Assembly (NCBI RefSeq): GCF_011758645.1
Contig: NZ_JAAMOZ010000001.1
Coordinates: forward strand, 2,232,001-2,296,000
Origin: Brooklawnia cerclae
GTDB lineage: Bacteria > Actinomycetota > Actinomycetes > Propionibacteriales > Propionibacteriaceae
Reading direction: 5' to 3'
Length of the DNA: 64,000 nucleotides
Below, one piece after another: positions 10,377 through 51,870 of the stretch. The position numbers and the translations under genes were made by a program. The notes beneath the pieces were generated by a model, which ran no database searches, was not told the origin of the DNA, and worked only from the letters and a program-made list of their open reading frames with translations. Each line of letters opens with the position of its first letter. Positions within the stretch are counted from its first letter, which is position 1.

Positions 10377-10395
10377 GCCGAGGTGCGCCGCGCCG

Positions 10396-10690
10396 GTCCT
10401 CGAGCCTGTCGAAAGGACCACACCCCCGTTTCGACAGGCTCAACGGCCGGTCCTTGAGCCTGGCGGCGGGTCCTTGAGCCTGTCGAAAGGACCACACCCA
10501 CCGTTTCGACAAGCTCAACGGCCGGTCCTTGAGCCTGTCGGCGGGTCCTTGAGCCTGTCGAAAGGACCACACCCACCGTTTCGACAAGCTCAACGGCCGG
10601 TCCTCGAGCCTGTCGGCGGGTCCTTGAGCCTGTCGGCCGGTCCTTGAGCCTGTCGAAAGGACCACACCCACCGTTTCGACAGGCTCAACG
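10396..10690 (+). repeat. Cluster of about 12 TTGAGCCTGTCGAA-type repeats
   Basis: Between the convergent lipA and tsf, the 14-mer TTGAGCCTGTCGAA and its complement TTCGACAGGCTCAA (or the AAGCTC form) occur about twelve times, some ending in GTCGG instead of GTCGAA. Forward and inverted copies alternate around an AAGGACCACACCCACCG spacer, so each pair can fold into a hairpin. Related clusters occur at 34.2, 42.6, 45.6 and 51.8 kb. No gene is seen here. Confidence 0.9.
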
Positions 10691-10749
10691 CCCGTCTGAC
10701 CGGAGCGCCCGGCGCCGTTCTCACGCAGAACGCACCGAACACACCGAAC

Positions 10750-23328: not shown

Positions 23329-24639
23329 GTGCCCGACGCTACCTTCGCTCGCCCTGACCTGACCACATTCGCCCGCCTCGACGAGCTCGGCCTTCAGGTC
23401 GTCGGGCAGCGCCTCGAGCCCGACCGGGCGGTCCTGGCCTGCCGGGTCGTCGAGCCCGACGGGTGGTGCCGTCGGTGCGGCTGCGAGGGCACGCCACGCG
23501 ACACCGTCACCCGCGAGCTCGCGCACGAGCCGCTGGGGTGGCGCCCCACCACGCTGGAGGTCACGGTGCGCCGCTACCGGTGCACCGGATGCGGGCACGT
23601 GTGGCGCCAGGACACCACCGCCGCGGCCGAGCCGCGGGCCAAGCTCTCCCGCCGGGGCCTGCGCTGGGCCCTGGAGGGCATCGTCGTCCAGCACCTCACC
23701 GTCGCCCGCGTCGCAGAAGGGCTCGGTGTCTCGTGGAACACCGCCAACACCGCGGTCCTGGCCGAAGGAAGCCGCGTCCTGATCGACGACCCGACCCGCT
23801 TCGACGGCGTCACGGCCGTCGGCGTGGACGAACACGTGTGGCGCCACACCCGCCGCGGGGACAAGTACGTCACCGTCATCATCGACCTCACCGGCGTCCG
23901 GGACGGGACCGGGCCCTCGCGGCTGCTCGACATGGTCGAGGGACGCTCCAAGCAGACGTTCAAGACCTGGCTCGCCGAACGCCCCCAGGCCTGGCGAGAC
24001 GGCGTCGAGGTCGTCGCTATGGACGGCTTCTCCGGCTTCAAGACCGCCACCACCGAGGAACTGCCCGACGCGGTCGCGGTCATGGATCCCTTCCACGTCG
24101 TCCGCCTGGCCGGTGACGCGCTCGATGAGTGCCGCCGCCGCGTCCAGCAGCACACCCGTGGCCACCGCGGCCGCAAGGGCGACCCGCTCTACACCGCCCG
24201 CCGCACCCTGCACACCGGCGCCGACCTGCTCACCGACAAGCAGAAGCAACGGCTCGATCGGCTGTTCACCGGGGACGACCACGTCGAGGTCGAGGCCACC
24301 TGGGCCGTCTACCAGCGCATGGTCACCGCCTACCGCGAACCCGACCGGACCCGGGGACGAGACCTCATGACCCACCTGATCGCCTCCCTCGCACAGGGAG
24401 TCCCGGCCACGCTGACCGAGCTGCGGACCCTGGGCCGTACTCTCAACCGACGCGCTGCCGACGTCCTGGCCTACTTCGACCGCCCCGGCACCTCGAATGG
24501 GCCTACCGAGGCCATGAACGGCCGACTCGAACACCTACGCGGCTCCGCCCTCGGCTTCCGCAACCTCACCAACTACATCGCCAGATCGCTCCTCGAGGCC
24601 GGCGGATTCAGACCCCGACTACACCCTGGATTCGGATGA
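23329..24639 (+). CDS. ISL3-family transposase
   Basis: 436 residues. Two N-terminal CxxC zinc-finger-like pairs (WCRRCGC; YRCTGCGHVW) precede a helix-turn-helix region (VARVAEGLGVSWNTAN) and a DDE catalytic domain: VGVDEHVW (first Asp), VAMDGFSGF (second Asp) and a C-terminal GPTEAMNGRLEHLR with the Glu. Full length for the family with no frameshift. GTG start abuts a 14-bp inverted repeat that may restrict translation. The stop lies 3 bp inside the right end of the element. Confidence 0.96.
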   Translation: MPDATFARPDLTTFARLDELGLQVVGQRLEPDRAVLACRVVEPDGWCRRCGCEGTPRDTVTRELAHEPLGWRPTTLEVTVRRYRCTGCGHVWRQDTTAAAEPRAKLSRRGLRWALEGIVVQHLTVARVAEGLGVSWNTANTAVLAEGSRVLIDDPTRFDGVTAVGVDEHVWRHTRRGDKYVTVIIDLTGVRDGTGPSRLLDMVEGRSKQTFKTWLAERPQAWRDGVEVVAMDGFSGFKTATTEELPDAVAVMDPFHVVRLAGDALDECRRRVQQHTRGHRGRKGDPLYTARRTLHTGADLLTDKQKQRLDRLFTGDDHVEVEATWAVYQRMVTAYREPDRTRGRDLMTHLIASLAQGVPATLTELRTLGRTLNRRAADVLAYFDRPGTSNGPTEAMNGRLEHLRGSALGFRNLTNYIARSLLEAGGFRPRLHPGFG

Positions 24640-28897: not shown

Positions 28898-29761
28898 ATG
28901 CCCGAGCCTGGTCAGCGATCGGATGCCATGAGCGGCCCGGACGCCACGAACCGGTTGGACGCCGCGATAGGCCTACTGGCCTGCCCTGTGTGCGGCTCAC
29001 AGTTCCGTCGCGTCGAGCGAGTGCTGCAGTGCACGATGCGGCACTCGTTCGACATCGCCCGGCAGGGTTACGTCAACCTGCTCGGCCGCAAGCCGCCGCA
29101 CAACGCCGACACCCCCGACATGATCGCCGCGCGCGAACGGTTCCTGTCGGGCGGGCACTACTCCCCCATCCGCGACGCCGTCGTGGCAGCCTGCCCGCCG
29201 AGGGAGTCGGTGATCGAGGTCGGTGCGGGCACGGGGTACTACCTGTCGGGGGTGGTCGCTGCCCGTCGTCCCACTGGGCACCTGGCCCTGGACGTATCGG
29301 TCGCCGCCGTCCGCCGCACTGCCGCGGCCGGCCTGGCCGCTGCCGTCGCCGACACGTGGGCGGGCCTGCCGGTGGCCGACGCCTGCGCCGGCATCGTGCT
29401 GTGCGTCTTCGCACCGCGGAACCCGGCCGAGTTCGACCGAGTGCTCCGTCCCGGTGGACGGGTGGTCGTCGTCACTCCGCAACCTGGCCACCTCGCAGGC
29501 CTGCGGCACGACCTCGGCCTGCTCGACATACCGGTCGACAAGGAAGATCGCCTGGACGAGTCCTTGGCGGCGGCAGGACTTCGCCTCGCGAGCCGGACTG
29601 CCGTGCGATTCGATCGGACGCTCACCCCCCACGAGGTCGCCGATCTCGTGGGGATGGGCCCGAATGCCTTCCACCATCGTTCGACTCTCACGGACGGGGC
29701 GGGTGGGGCGTCGTCCACCATCGACGTCGCTGTCGACATCAGCACGTTCGTCCAGGCGTGA
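28898..29761 (+). CDS. 23S rRNA guanine-N1 methyltransferase, RlmA family
   Basis: A 287-residue protein with an N-terminal zinc site (ACPVCGSQF, then C and H in LQCTMRHSFD) followed by ARQGYVNLL, the RlmA hallmark. A class I methyltransferase domain (VIEVGAGTGYY) and C-terminal MGPNAFH follow. RlmA(I) modifies G745 and RlmA(II)/TlrB modifies G748; which one applies here is unclear. ATG at 28898 follows the upstream stop by 4 nt; ATG at 28928 is an alternative. Confidence 0.9.
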   Translation: MPEPGQRSDAMSGPDATNRLDAAIGLLACPVCGSQFRRVERVLQCTMRHSFDIARQGYVNLLGRKPPHNADTPDMIAARERFLSGGHYSPIRDAVVAACPPRESVIEVGAGTGYYLSGVVAARRPTGHLALDVSVAAVRRTAAAGLAAAVADTWAGLPVADACAGIVLCVFAPRNPAEFDRVLRPGGRVVVVTPQPGHLAGLRHDLGLLDIPVDKEDRLDESLAAAGLRLASRTAVRFDRTLTPHEVADLVGMGPNAFHHRSTLTDGAGGASSTIDVAVDISTFVQA

Positions 29762-29821
29762 GGCTTCACCGGTCTCGCCGGCCTCGCACGCGCGTCGGGC
29801 CGGGACCCACGGCACTCTTCA

Positions 29822-29920
29822 CGCGGCCCGCGTGACCTCACGCGGGCGCTGTCATTTCCCGCGAGCGCTATATCACCCGCGGCAGTACATACGACTCGCG
29901 TGATTCACACAGCACCCGCG
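29822..29920. repeat. 19-bp periodic CGCG array
   Basis: CGCG cores occur at 29822, 29829, 29841, 29860, 29878, 29897 and 29917; the last five are spaced 19, 18, 19 and 20 bp. Flanks are related but diverged (on the minus strand CCGCGGGTGATATAGCG, CTCGCGGGAAATGACAGCG and similar), so this is a decayed tandem array with unit about 19 bp. A diverged copy of its central part is at 31839-31886. It fills most of the gap between the RlmA-like gene and the lipoprotein gene. Confidence 0.75.
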
Positions 29921-29954
29921 GGAGCACCTGTACTTGTTCTTGGCACGGCCATGT

Positions 29955-30526
29955 TCAGCCGACGCAGGTGAATGCGGCTTCGGTTCCCTGGTGCCCGAGG
30001 TCCTGCAGGTCGCCTCGCCATGACGTGTAGGTGTCGAAGCCCCAGATCGTCTCGCTCGTGTCGAGCCGGACCCGCGCGACCGAGATGATCTCGGTTTCTG
30101 GGACCAGCGGGTACGGCGCCAGATAGGCGCGTTTGCTGATCGGCGGCACCGAGCCCCGGTCGGACGGGTCGGACCACGCGAAGATCGCCCACTGCCCGGA
30201 CGGCGAGGTCACGACGGCGCCGATCGGCATATGGACGTCATCACGCCGCGGTCTGCCCTTGGCGCTGGTCGGGTCGAGCATCCAGTCGACGAACTCGTCA
30301 GGGGCTTGAACGCAGTCGACGAACTCGATCGACGGAGTGAACCCATCGGGATACTCGACGACGTCGGTGTGGTAATTGCGCGTCGGACTCGGCGCGATCG
30401 CCACCGAGGACGGCACAGCGGGGGCCGACGTCGGCGAGGGCTCGGACGGCGCGTCCGGCTGTGAGGACGCAGGCGCGCACCCGGCCACCAGCAGCACGGA
30501 CAGCACCCGAGGTGAGACAGCCGCAT
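29955..30526 (-). pseudogene. Lipoprotein gene with a one-base deletion in its signal peptide
   Basis: From GTG at 30506 the frame reads VLSVLLVAGC (lipobox) and about 174 further residues ending FTCVG. No proper n-region precedes it. An ATG at 30526 with GGAGG 5 nt upstream encodes MRLSHLG but in the neighbouring frame; restoring one base near 30507 would give MRLSHL-G-VLSVLLVAGC, a textbook lipoprotein signal, and 191 codons. The mature part is Pro/Ser-rich, then a globular domain with several Trp. A real deletion or a sequence error are both possible. Related fragment at 30718-30825. Confidence 0.65.
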
Positions 30527-30724
30527 TCCTTCCTCCGTCACCTCCACTATTACGTGATCGCTAACGATATTTCCCGAAAGGATGTGGCCCTCGGTTGCCT
30601 TGTAACCGATTATCAGACTTATGAGAATGCAAGTCACCAAAAGTAGAACTCGAAGAATTTTCTTTAGAGGGCCTTCGCTTGCAGCATTATCACTAGACAC
30701 AATCTGCCGTCCTATGATACCCAC
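30527..30724 (-). pseudogene. Small membrane-protein remnant
   Basis: From 30724 a frame gives about 65 residues with one hydrophobic segment (ILRVLLLVTCILISLIIGY) and then VIVEVTEEG, before running without a stop into the shifted lipoprotein reading. The segment is visibly more A+T-rich than its surroundings. It looks like a leftover of a membrane protein fused by rearrangement to the lipoprotein region. I do not recognise a family. Confidence 0.35.
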
Positions 30725-30825
30725 CAGTCGATGAACTCGTCAGGGGGCTTGAACGCAACCGACGAACTCGATCGGCGGAGTGAACCCATCGGGATACTCG
30801 ACAACGTCGGTGCGGACAACAGGTG
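30718..30825 (-). pseudogene. Fragment of a second copy of the lipoprotein gene
   Basis: About 100 bp closely resemble 30270-30378 of the lipoprotein gene (encoding TDVVEYPDGFTP.IEFV..CVQAP.DEF.DW), with an extra C in a run of Cs that shifts the frame at the QAP position. Nothing of the rest of the gene is found, so this is a remnant of duplication and deletion. The rest of the gap to 30904 shows no gene. Confidence 0.75.
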
Positions 30826-30904
30826 ATGTCGTCCACAAATGTGGGGAGTCAATCGGCGAACTATTCTCTCGAAAGCTCCTTCTTGACGACTGAGCAACGT
30901 CTTC

Positions 30905-31300
30905 TTAGGCGGGCAAAGCCTGTAGCGCTTGGTGAGTAAAATACGCGGCTGCGATACCGAGTCCGACCTCAATTACAACCAAGGCGGCAAAAAGTTTCCA
31001 TTTCGGGACAAAGAAAAGCACTGCCGAACCAACGGGCAGCAGCGACGCAGCGATGAAAAAGATCCTCAAAGTTATCCGGTTTAAACGCGCGATGTGTTGC
31101 CAGACTGGGTCAGACGGGTTATAAATGTAGTCATCGGACCCTATCCCCACCGTTATCAGCCTATACAATATATATAGACTGATAACGAGAGCGGAGTGGA
31201 AGAACGCCAAACCGGGCCATACATTGCGCCCCCTCTTTTGCATATCTGGCATGATTCTCGGTTCATCAGACAAACTGGGCTCCTTGGCAACGCGCTCCAT
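30905..31300 (-). CDS. Small membrane protein of unknown function
   Basis: 131 residues with three hydrophobic segments (about 30-50, 80-100 and 105-125) and short charged loops. Base composition is clearly lower in GC than the flanking core genes, suggesting acquisition from another source. No strong ribosome binding site before the ATG at 31300; internal Met at about residue 17 or 20 are alternatives. No family recognised. It lies in the decaying stretch 29.8-31.9 kb. Confidence 0.55.
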   Translation of the reverse strand: MERVAKEPSLSDEPRIMPDMQKRGRNVWPGLAFFHSALVISLYILYRLITVGIGSDDYIYNPSDPVWQHIARLNRITLRIFFIAASLLPVGSAVLFFVPKWKLFAALVVIEVGLGIAAAYFTHQALQALPA

Positions 31301-31391
31301 ATTAGATTATGACTCTCCTAGCAGGGCGGTCGATTCTGGCGGCCAAGAAGGCCTCTATCCGTTTTGTCGTCATTGTTCATGAGGTTGCTCT

Positions 31392-31760
31392 TTATGCATC
31401 GGCTGTGATGATTTGGTGCCCGACAGCGGCAGCAATTTCTTGGAGTTTAGCATCTGGTGACCCCAGGACTATTTCAGAGTGGGAGGGTTGGGGCGTGTCA
31501 TAGGTGCCTCCCCAGTTGACGGCTGGGGCTCCGCTGTGTGGCGTGGTTGTGGCAGACAGGCCGAACAGTGGTGTTTCGAAGATGCCACCGGCGGGGTCGA
31601 GCCGGAATTGGACGAGCCACCCGTTGGCGCTGGCCCAGCCGGAGAATAGATCACCCACGCGTTGTTCGGCTTCATCGACTTGTGCCTGAACGTCCGGCGG
31701 GAAGCCCGGGGTGGGTGGTTCCGGGGTAGGGTCAGCTCGCGCAACTGCGGGTAGGCCCAT
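31392..31760 (-). CDS. Hypothetical protein, possibly a C-terminal fragment
   Basis: From ATG 31760 about 122 residues: a Pro/Thr-rich linker (DPTPEPPTPGFPPD), then a compact domain with two Trp ending VGHQIITADA. Pro-rich linkers normally join domains, so the upstream half may be missing; the frame continues open upstream but loses protein-like composition. No family recognised. Codon use is closer to the core genes than that of the neighbouring membrane protein. Confidence 0.45.
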   Translation of the reverse strand: MGLPAVARADPTPEPPTPGFPPDVQAQVDEAEQRVGDLFSGWASANGWLVQFRLDPAGGIFETPLFGLSATTTPHSGAPAVNWGGTYDTPQPSHSEIVLGSPDAKLQEIAAAVGHQIITADA

Positions 31761-31838
31761 CGTTTCCCACGAGGGCCGTTGTGACGCCAGCAAACAGGTA
31801 CGTTCATCCGCGGTTGAGGACGCCGCTGTGGCGCAGCT

Positions 31839-31886
31839 CTCATGCGAGCGCCGTCGCTTCCAGCAGGCGCTACACCACCCGCGGCA
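31839..31886. repeat. Diverged copy of the 29.84-kb intergenic repeat
   Basis: About 48 bp starting CTCATGCGAGCGCCGTC and ending CACCCGCGGCA align with 29837-29884 at roughly four bases in five, by eye. It lies between the hypothetical protein and the ABC-F gene. Confidence 0.6.
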
Positions 31887-31938
31887 ACGCGACCCAGAAG
31901 GTACAGGGGCCGACTCGCGCTGGGCGATCCAGCATTCC

Positions 31939-33549
31939 TCAGGCCAGCGAGACCAACTCGGCGTAGTCCTCGTTCCAGAGATCCTCGGTGCCATCGGGCA
32001 GGACGATCACCCGGTCGGGCTCCAACGCGTGCACAGCCCCCTCGTCGTGGGTGACCAGCACGATCGCCCCCGCGTAGTGGCGGATCGCGTTCAGTACCTG
32101 CTCCCGGGATGCCGGATCGAGGTTGTTGGTCGGCTCGTCCAGCAGAAGCACATTGGCCGCCGACACCACCAGCGTCGCCAGGGCCAGGCGTGTCTTCTCA
32201 CCACCCGACAGGACGCGGGCCGGCTTGTGGTCGTCGTCCCCGGTGAACAAGAACCCACCCAGCACCTTGCGGGCGTCGGTCTCGTTGAGGTTCGGCGCAG
32301 CGTCCATCATGTTCTCCAGCACCGTGCGCTCGGGGTCGAGCAGATCGTGCTCCTGGGCGAAATACCCGATCTTGAGGCCGTGCCCGGCAACGACCTCGCC
32401 CGTGTCGGGTTCCTCCAACCCCATGAGCAGGCGGAGCAGCGTCGTCTTGCCCGCGCCGTTGAACCCCAGGATCACCACCCGCGAACCTCGGTCGACGGCC
32501 AGGTCGACGCCGGTGAACACTTCCAGCGACCCGTAGCTCTTCGACAGGTCGTGAGCCGACAGCGGGGTCTTGCCACACGGTGCCGGGGTGGGGAAGGTGA
32601 TCTTGGCCACCTTGTCCTGGGCACGCTCGCCCTCCACACCCGCCAGCAGGCGTTCGGCACGCCGCGCCATGTTCTGGGCGGCGGTGGCCTTCGTCGCCTT
32701 GGCCCCGAGACGCTCGGCCTGCGTCAGCAGCTGTGCGGCCTTGCGCTCGGCGTTCTGCCGTTCCCGCTTGCGGCGCTTCTCGTCGGTCTCCCGCTGCTGC
32801 AGGTAGGCCTTCCAGCCCATGGAGTACTGGTCGAGGGTGGCCCGGTTGGCGTCCAGATGAAAAACCTTGGTCACCGTGGCGTCCAGCAGCCCCGTGTCGT
32901 GGCTGATCATGATCACGCCGCCGGCGTAGGTCTTGATGAAGTCGCGCAACCACACGATCGAGTCGGCGTCCAGGTGGTTGGTGGGCTCGTCCAGCAGCAG
33001 CGTCTCGGCGTTGCTGAACAGGATCCTCGCCAGCTCGACGCGCCGCCGCTGACCACCCGACAGCTCGTGCAGCGGCTGGCCCAGCACCCGGTCGGGCAGG
33101 CCGAGGTTGGCGGCGATGCGCGCCGCCTCCGACTCGGCCGCGTACCCGCCGGCCGCCATGAGCTCGGCCTCGGCCCGCGCATACGACGCCATGGCGCGTT
33201 CCTGCTCGTCGCCCTGCGTGGTGGCCATGAGCTCCTCGAAACGGTGGAGCCGTTCGAGGATGCTGTCGAGCCCGCGGACACTCAGGATGCGGTCACGGGC
33301 GAGCGTCGACAGATCGGACTCCCTCGGATCCTGCGGGAGGTAGCCGATCCGACCGGCGCGGCTCACCTGCCCGGCAGCGGGCAAGGACTCCCCCGCGAGG
33401 ATTCGCATGGTCGTCGTCTTCCCGGCGCCGTTCCGGCCGACGAGGCCGATCCTGTCGCCGGGGTTGACCCGGAAAGTGGTGGGTTCGAGCAACAGCCGCG
33501 CGCCCGCGCGGACCTCGAGGTCTGATGCCTGCAACATGTCGTCGTCCAT
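31939..33549 (-). CDS. ABC-F family ATPase
   Basis: 536 residues with two ATPase domains and no membrane segments: Walker A GRNGAGKTT and GFNGAGKTT, signatures LSGGQRRR and LSGGEKTR, Walker B LLLDEPTNHLD and LLLDEPTNNLD. A charged linker of about 80 residues (RRKRERQNAERKAAQLL) lies between. ABC-F proteins act on ribosomes, in translation control or in antibiotic protection; the subfamily is not certain. ATG at 33549 has GGGGAG too close; ATG at 33537 is an alternative. Divergent from thpR. Confidence 0.93.
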   Translation of the reverse strand: MDDDMLQASDLEVRAGARLLLEPTTFRVNPGDRIGLVGRNGAGKTTTMRILAGESLPAAGQVSRAGRIGYLPQDPRESDLSTLARDRILSVRGLDSILERLHRFEELMATTQGDEQERAMASYARAEAELMAAGGYAAESEAARIAANLGLPDRVLGQPLHELSGGQRRRVELARILFSNAETLLLDEPTNHLDADSIVWLRDFIKTYAGGVIMISHDTGLLDATVTKVFHLDANRATLDQYSMGWKAYLQQRETDEKRRKRERQNAERKAAQLLTQAERLGAKATKATAAQNMARRAERLLAGVEGERAQDKVAKITFPTPAPCGKTPLSAHDLSKSYGSLEVFTGVDLAVDRGSRVVILGFNGAGKTTLLRLLMGLEEPDTGEVVAGHGLKIGYFAQEHDLLDPERTVLENMMDAAPNLNETDARKVLGGFLFTGDDDHKPARVLSGGEKTRLALATLVVSAANVLLLDEPTNNLDPASREQVLNAIRHYAGAIVLVTHDEGAVHALEPDRVIVLPDGTEDLWNEDYAELVSLA

Positions 33550-33621: not shown

Positions 33622-34176
33622 GTGTCGAGGCGCATGTTCATCGCCGTGCTCCCACCGGCCCAGGTCATCGAACACCTGGCAGACCAGATCGAGCACGTCG
33701 GTCCACCCGCCGGGCGTCCGCGCATGACCACCCCGGGCTCGTGGCACATCACCTGCGCGTTTCTGGGTGAGGTGGACGACGATCGGGCGGACCGGCTCGC
33801 CGACGCGCTCCCCGATCACGCCGCGGGCATCGAACCCTTCCCCCTGCGGTTGGCGGGAATCGGTGCCTTCCCCGACCTGGCGACGCCGAGGCACTGGTGG
33901 GTCGGGGTGGACGATCCCACCGGACGCCTGGCCACGCTGTTCCGCGCCTGCCGACAGGCCTGCCGCGAGTCAGGAATCGCTGTCGGCCGCGCGGCCCAAC
34001 TCGCACACCTGACCGTCGCGCGCGGCAAACCCGCTCCCGACCCGGAGTGGGCGGCTGCGTGGCAGGGGTATCTCGGGCCGGAGTGGACGGTGGACGGCCT
34101 CGACCTGATGGTCTCGGTGCTGAGCGGCACCGGAGCCCACTACAGCTCGATCGCCCGTTTCCCTCTCGGTCGTTGA
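33622..34176 (+). CDS. thpR: RNA 2',3'-cyclic phosphodiesterase ThpR
   Basis: A 184-residue 2H phosphoesterase with both HxT motifs: H42-x-T44 (HITCAF) and H129-x-T131 (HLTVAR). It opens 2',3'-cyclic phosphates on RNA; the cellular role is unclear. GTG at 33622 or ATG at 33634 may start it. Convergent with the suf operon, separated by a repeat cluster. Confidence 0.92.
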   Translation: MSRRMFIAVLPPAQVIEHLADQIEHVGPPAGRPRMTTPGSWHITCAFLGEVDDDRADRLADALPDHAAGIEPFPLRLAGIGAFPDLATPRHWWVGVDDPTGRLATLFRACRQACRESGIAVGRAAQLAHLTVARGKPAPDPEWAAAWQGYLGPEWTVDGLDLMVSVLSGTGAHYSSIARFPLGR

Positions 34177-34198
34177 GTGTTTCGCCCTCGGCCGTTGA

Positions 34199-34322
34199 GC
34201 GTTTTGCCTCCGGTCGTTGAGCTTGTCGAAACGACTTCCCTTCGACAGGCTCAGGGAGCATACAGTCCCTTCGACAGGCTCAGGGGGCGTGGTTCGACAG
34301 GCTCAAGGAGCGTACTCGGCCC
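34199..34322. repeat. Repeat cluster of the TTCGACAGGCTCA type
   Basis: Four copies: TTGAGCTTGTCGAA once, then CTTCGACAGGCTCAGG twice and TTCGACAGGCTCAAGG once. It sits between the convergent thpR and the last suf gene; the first copy can pair with the others as a hairpin. Confidence 0.85.
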
Positions 34323-45501: not shown

Positions 45502-45517
45502 GGAACCGCTGATCAAT

Positions 45518-45695
45518 GATCCCTGAGCCTGTCGAAGGGCCGTGACCCCTGAGCCTGTCGAAGGGCCATGACCCCTGAGCCTGTCGAAGGGCCGTGACCC
45601 CTGAGCCTGTCGAAGGGCCGTGACCCCTGAGCCTGTCGAAGGGCCGTGGAACTGCCGTCCGACAACGGGCTTCGACAGGCTCAGCCAGCGTTTCC
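45518..45695 (+). repeat. Five CCTGAGCCTGTCGAAGG units and one inverted copy
   Basis: CCTGAGCCTGTCGAAGGGCC followed by GTGA or ATGA repeats five times at 26-bp spacing, then one inverted copy CTTCGACAGGCTCAG. It occupies most of the gap between the pyrophosphatase and the FGGY kinase genes and can fold between the last direct and the inverted copy. Confidence 0.9.
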
Positions 45696-51715: not shown

Positions 51716-51870
51716 CCCTTCGACAGGCTCAGGGAGCGGTGGTTGGGCCCGTGCGATCGGGTGGTTGAGCCTGTCGAAACCACCAAGCCCGTGAGATCGG
51801 GTGGTTGAGCCCGTCGAAACCACCAAGCCCGTGAGATCGGGTGGTTGAGCCTGTCGAAACCATCGAGGCC
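51716..51870. repeat. Repeat cluster between pgl and a small membrane protein gene
   Basis: One CTTCGACAGGCTCAGG copy followed by three GGTGGTTGAGCCTGTCGAAA units (the second with CCCGTC for CCTGTC) at about 40-bp spacing, separated by ACCACCAAGCCCGTGAGATC. Located between convergent genes. Confidence 0.9.

Follow-up and report, generated by a model that had tools for sequence, protein, structure and literature searches.

Palindromic arrays of short DNA sites, spaced about 19 bp apart, flank one family of nuclease-like genes throughout actinobacteria, an arrangement suggesting that they belong to a self-spreading element of an undescribed kind. One family of such arrays is dispersed over the genome of Brooklawnia cerclae (G000), and two of its copies lie in the window analyzed here, a stretch of 64,000 nucleotides of that genome, which holds solo copies and no cassette. 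We interpret the window array as a solo copy, not autonomous itself, of a palindromic element that in its autonomous form would be a cassette composed of an array, a DnaA-box-like motif, one gene and a second array, and we assign this reading a probability of about 0.6.

The full array copy in the window occupies positions 29819..29927 on the plus strand, as delimited by its sequence, the alignment of copies and a match to the family model (C1:2261819-2261925, E 7e-24). It is composed of six sites of about 19 bp, with a TCACGCGGCCCGCGTGA cap followed by right-facing sites at 29841 and 29860 and by left-facing sites at 29878, 29897 and 29917, the dyad centre being located between 29863 and 29878. 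Seven CGCG cores start at 29822, 29829, 29841, 29860, 29878, 29897 and 29917. The chain with spacings of 19/19/18/19/20 forms a run of six cores at 17-21 bp, whereas none of the 200 second-order Markov simulations of this sequence gave a run longer than four. Thus the cores spaced by 18-20 bp that the first-pass annotation had pointed out, with two more at the left edge, are real. A degraded copy with about two sites is present at 31836..31891 on the plus strand (model match C1:2263836-2263891, E 3.7e-6; E=5e-5 for this place in the whole-genome search). Both copies share a 48-nt direct repeat (29837-29884 and 31839-31886), for which an identity of about 80% had been estimated by eye and 79% was measured without gaps.

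The 108-nt window array had 66 matches in its own genome, and a sequence model built from 28 aligned copies identified 40 distinct places at E<=1.4e-5. These places were merged by hand from 90 strand-wise rows, as each dyad copy matches both strands. The possibility that the repeat has no further copies and no better-than-random match is therefore clearly contradicted, and the two window copies are not a pair but members of a family of about 40. Together with three weaker places we considered 43 copies, 39 of which lie clear of predicted genes or overlap them by at most 20 nt; 12 are located in convergent, 13 in divergent and 18 in tandem intervals. The gene calls used for this placement, as well as for the control genes below, came from a simple codon-score caller trained on the window. 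The solo copies have diverged, with a mean of 0.59 in an alignment extending into the flanks, and the earlier suggestion of an old element fits such diverged and dispersed copies. The same family was found in none of the seven other genomes of the genus that were searched, and the exact long array pattern had no match in the named genomes. One copy, in locus L009, is adjoined by a TPP riboswitch (1290-1399, E 2.5e-10).

The array consensus begins with TTCACGCGG and ends with GCGGGAA(C). It represents a row of asymmetric sites, TTCMCGCGGG, spaced by about 19 bp, in which the left sites face right and the right sites face left; at the array centre, where the orientation flips, the core-to-core distance is 18. 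Information content peaks in the cores and in the outer T/A of each site, and is near zero at several spacer positions. For the possible 28-bp stem, the proportion of paired cells was 79.4% versus 79.1% in shuffles, and there were no compensatory pairs among the 14 pairs of the predicted consensus structure. The conserved feature is a set of DNA sites and not an RNA fold. The proposal of a multi-site protein binding array, also made in the first-pass annotation, agrees with this conservation of repeated site cores rather than of base pairing.

The 19-18-19 geometry reaches wider than the array sequence, into unrelated-looking arrays and into other genera. Using a centre-free pattern (CGCG cores, 19-bp outer spacing, centre of 12-24), we found a centre of 18 in 24 of 33 places in the B. 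cerclae genome, including a second array family (for example, C1:469091) and a third type (C1:1753584). The centre was also 18 in 10 of 11 places in G002 from the same genus (centre free at 12-24), and in 17 of 18 places in G016 from another genus (centre free at 15-22). A search of 393 genomes of the class with the fixed 19-18-19 pattern gave mostly single matches, which look like chance matches by the control counts, along with 24 matches in G656 (another family) and nine in G024. G011 (C1:5429-5527) and G086 (C1:3381599-3382167) also contain long tandem arrays with CGCG cores that repeat every 19 bp in a single direction, lacking the dyad flip.

Certain arrays enclose a gene. In B. cerclae, the near-identical family-1 arrays at C1:77129 and 78254 enclose one gene at C1:77245-78165, the family-2 arrays at C1:469091 and 470143 enclose one at C1:469185-470072, and in G002 the arrays at 3081605 and 3082743 enclose one frameshifted gene; these three genes are mutually homologous. 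Only two of the approximately 40 family-1 arrays in B. cerclae bracket the nuclease-like gene. The array-gene-array arrangement was found for all three homologs in B. cerclae, as well as in G002, G024, G656 and others, and the array differs between genes. Judging from sequence comparisons, the bracketed gene always belongs to one family, in which a predicted AbiEi-like DNA-binding part is fused to a DUF559/Vsr-like C-terminus. The AbiEi models of PADLOC match all 25 aligned members, and Pfam AbiEi_4 matches 18 of 25 at E<=1. The C-terminal half contains invariant D224, E235 and D237 and near-invariant K241, with E259, R262 and E263 also in the conserved pattern. DUF559 scores are weak, with matches in two of 25 members (best 0.025; L374 at 0.0028, below the cut-off). 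These weak scores and the conserved D/E/K residues hint at a putative PD-(D/E)XK-type nuclease. A profile search of PDB gave no significant match and no solved relative for the protein family, NCBIfam gave no match, and no relatives were found in viral contigs or in phage records. The gene family is present in 60 of 79 actinobacterial genomes, with up to 14 members per genome, and the named records looked at annotate its members as hypothetical proteins or AbiEi-type antitoxins.

Bracketing of this gene by same-direction array copies is general in actinobacteria. We analyzed two sets of homologs. Set 1 comprised 39 loci derived from 43 homolog rows in 18 genomes, partly chosen for holding arrays, after merging gene pieces and omitting a contig-end copy in G007. 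Set 2 came from 79 genomes of the class, for which 30 loci out of a longer list of rows were available; L345 repeats a set 1 locus and was dropped, leaving 29. Loci with an in-frame stop (L336, L339, L341, L290, L366) were retained in the counts. An exact direct repeat of at least 14 nt within 400 bp brackets 22 of the 39 homologs in set 1, or 19 of 36 when the three loci discovered by way of their arrays are set aside. With this threshold, fixed on set 1 and left unchanged, 13 of the 29 homologs in the independent set 2 are bracketed, as compared to five of 496 control genes (Fisher p 1.6e-14). These controls were the called genes of L145-L224; eight of 640 random intervals were also bracketed, as were three of 163 genes in B. 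cerclae, two of them being homologs themselves. Four of six homologs in named records of the plasmid collection were bracketed, including those from Tsukamurella, Arthrobacter and, from another class, Collinsella.

The bracketing copies run in the same direction, one located upstream of the gene (median 173 nt) and one downstream (median 80 nt). The repeats are mostly palindromic and differ in sequence from gene to gene. For example, the element in G011 is a perfect 60-bp palindrome with TGCA cores at 0, 19, 37 and 56 (that is, 19-18-19) and two further TGCA words between them, and the element in G006 is a perfect 58-bp palindrome. Exact 9-mers repeated at an offset of 19 occur in 29 of 78 homolog flanks versus none of 312 control flanks. 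The set 2 period peaks at 20 bp (15 of 58 flanks), a value first noticed in that set. At 18 of the 68 homolog loci, both the direct repeat and the 19/20-bp period were lacking. Cassettes of the genus occupy unrelated positions, since G006 and G007 alone share flanking ORFs among nine cassette loci, compared mostly over 1.5-kb flanks, one of them shortened by a contig end.

A second feature of these loci is the motif TTNTCCACA, which resembles a DnaA box. Upstream of the gene, in the adjoining 300 bp, it occurs at 31 of 68 homologs; downstream it occurs at none of 67. The corresponding controls were two of 800 random stretches, two of 288 B. cerclae genes and one of 496 genes of the named genomes. 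In the independent set alone, the motif is present upstream of 12 of 29 homologs (Fisher p 8e-16).

The analysis thus establishes the array family, its geometry and its association with the gene; DNA binding, cleavage, spreading and a timing with replication are inferred. These observations could be explained by an undescribed class of selfish elements in actinobacteria, in which an AbiEi-derived protein with a Vsr-like nuclease part is flanked by palindromic arrays of its own and spreads them genome-wide, by cutting the DNA at the array and copying it there, with a DnaA box setting the timing relative to replication; each co-evolving paralog would have a private array with the ~19-20-bp geometry kept. 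We consider the chances of this broader scheme to be about even. The AbiEi-like part would bind the ~19-bp sites as a row of monomers meeting head to head at the centre, and the C-terminal part would cut or nick DNA at the array. Repair or copying could then seed new arrays in intergenic DNA and keep the cores alike, and expression might be coupled to replication through DnaA. The solo arrays, including the fossil or still-bound copy that the window array would represent, may be a non-autonomous or left-over form, by analogy with REPINs and their RAYTs as outlined in PMC3116915. PMC7319586 and PMC3985639 describe cooperative binding of Streptococcus AbiEi to two inverted repeats of 23 bp, with bending of the DNA, and binding of M. 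tuberculosis Rv2827c to four repeats in tandem; thus an AbiEi-like part reading head-to-head rows of ~20-bp sites would fit the domain behaviour described there. As for mobility and a possible classification as MITEs of a DDE transposon, no target-site duplication was seen by eye in seven family-2 copies of B. cerclae, and the analysis found no empty site, no recent near-identical copies at distant places and no direct evidence of movement. These negative results count against the proposed element, as do the divergence of the solo copies, the 18 homolog loci lacking both signals, the weak DUF559 scores and the small number of family-1 arrays that bracket the gene.

Several other explanations were weighed against the proposed element. 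The arrays might be operators, with the AbiEi-like protein as a repressor that binds inverted repeats close to the gene encoding it, and with a regulon formed by the dispersed copies. Autoregulation through inverted repeats is described for AbiEi and Rv2827c in PMC7319586 and PMC3985639, and one array copy is indeed located upstream of each bracketed gene. However, operators do not account for the second copy downstream, nor for the 12 of 43 arrays between convergent genes, where no promoter is expected (a further 18 lie in tandem intervals), and the family is absent from the other searched genomes of the genus; we regard this explanation as unlikely. A reading as terminators or as operators only was rejected, since the orientation of the neighbouring genes speaks against it. 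Phased sites with conserved cores, spread through intergenic DNA genome-wide, would also be expected of chromosome organisers that bind a nucleoid-type protein at multiple sites without mobility, similar to BIMEs. Yet the families are species-restricted, each paralogous gene has a different array, and the link to one gene family is consistent, which makes such a role rather improbable. Still less support can be claimed for RNA hairpins of the REP type, serving as terminators or mRNA stabilisers: the left and right halves are complementary and there are several perfect 58-60 bp palindromes among the bracketing elements, but the consensus lacks compensatory pairs, full-stem pairing equals that of shuffles, 13 of 43 arrays are in divergent intervals, and the window has no Rfam match at gathering scores. 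This possibility appears very improbable. Structured RNA was also sought at five array loci in Rfam and rejected, the only results being the L009 TPP riboswitch beside the array and a sub-threshold chance match.

The remaining alternative, raised in the first-pass annotation, concerns the window alone and treats its two copies as old recombination ends of a lipoprotein segment. The full copy is preceded at 57 nt by the end of a methyltransferase gene (28898..29761, plus strand), an ORF conserved in the 150 related loci found and presumably RlmA-like, and a lipoprotein-like ORF with no Pfam match (29955..30506, minus strand; ORF list and Pfam search) converges on the array. The degraded copy is 47 nt from the 3' end of an ORF (31939..33549, minus strand) syntenic with L145, which, judging from its sequence, presumably encodes an ABC-F type ATPase. 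In L145, a syntenic relative from an uncultured Propionibacterium MAG, the interval between rlmA and the ABC-F gene is 440 nt and array-free versus 2178 nt in the window. The window copies thus border, on either side, a segment absent from L145, and in this sense a bracket exists. A special relation between the two copies did not emerge, as their identity ranks 565th among the 780 pairs of 40 copies. Given also that the second copy is degraded and that the window, including the stretch between the copies, contains no homolog of the nuclease-like gene, recombination ends are a highly improbable explanation. Ranks 1 and 2 belong to two other neighbouring pairs, C1:1652450/1655070 (2.6 kb) and C3:95634/101203 (5.5 kb); the segments they bracket, in which a protein search detected no member of the nuclease-like gene family, could be cargo or local duplications. 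In the window, a 72-nt direct repeat (30301-30372 and 30744-30815, 93% identity) duplicates part of the lipoprotein ORF into the adjoining low-GC stretch. Another family of dispersed repeats, whose core is GAGCCTGTCGAAA / TTTCGACAGGCTCAAGG, forms tandem arrays of 20-95 bp period at 10395-10694, 34156-34313, 45517-45648 and 51747-51862, and its motif truncates one CGCG array in L030. The ORF at 23329-24639 resembles an ISL3-type transposase gene.

If the gene family does maintain palindromic arrays, a widespread family of ‘antitoxins’ would really be the enzyme of a dispersed-repeat system, and the REPIN/RAYT role would have had a second, independent origin. The family is also a naturally occurring collection of DNA-binding proteins whose cognate sites can be read, because each bracketed gene has them on either side, and it makes a connection of such elements with replication via DnaA open to testing. 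In the open-access literature searched, as judged by titles and beginnings of abstracts, no description of AbiEi/DUF559 genes flanked by palindromic arrays was found, and no paper combined AbiEi with DUF559.

Among known systems, Tn402/Tn5090 and Tn7-like transposons carry at each end an array of enzyme-binding sites of ~19-22 bp, the two arrays being oppositely oriented. In contrast, each array described here is itself a dyad with exactly abutted halves, the flanking copies run in the same direction, and no such transposase was identified. Vsr-like homing endonucleases provide another comparison class, which the bracketed protein recalls through its weak DUF559 similarity and conserved D/E/K pattern. 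DUF559 is often found in Vsr-like enzymes, according to PMC12907096; here, however, the DUF559-like part is joined to an AbiEi-like one, and the gene is associated with palindromic arrays. The AbiE type IV toxin-antitoxin systems (AbiEi / Rv2827c) share the AbiEi-like N-terminus, and the AbiEi proteins covered in PMC7319586 and PMC3985639 bind inverted and tandem repeats of ~23 bp. Membership in AbiE fails because the partner is absent: the two CGCG-array cassettes examined in B. cerclae contain no AbiEii toxin gene, only a single gene between the arrays and no room for another. The extra DUF559-like C-terminus and the repeats on both sides of the gene and dispersed genome-wide are further differences.

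The closest likeness is to REPINs or REP sequences with their RAYTs, which PMC3116915 and PMC3733652 present as dispersed extragenic pairs of inverted motifs with a variable spacer, found near a cognate gene and differing from gene to gene. Similarly, the arrays contain an inverted pair of a conserved motif with a less conserved spacer, are dispersed extragenically (39 of 43 copies), and have copies beside one cognate DNA-acting gene with a different repeat for each gene. Membership fails, despite this similar working, as the Y1 transposase and the tags are absent: the RAYT transposase (Y1_Tnp, PF01797) had no match in B. cerclae, the same search being positive in five of 14 genomes, and inspection of the consensus found no GTAG or CGTC tag at the array end. 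The systems also differ in the AbiEi/DUF559-like gene, the rows of ~19-bp sites with an 18-bp centre, the same-direction copies on both sides of the gene and the DnaA-box-like motif. On this comparison, the dispersed arrays and their cognate enzyme are probably best read as a REPIN/RAYT-like system built on an unrelated protein.
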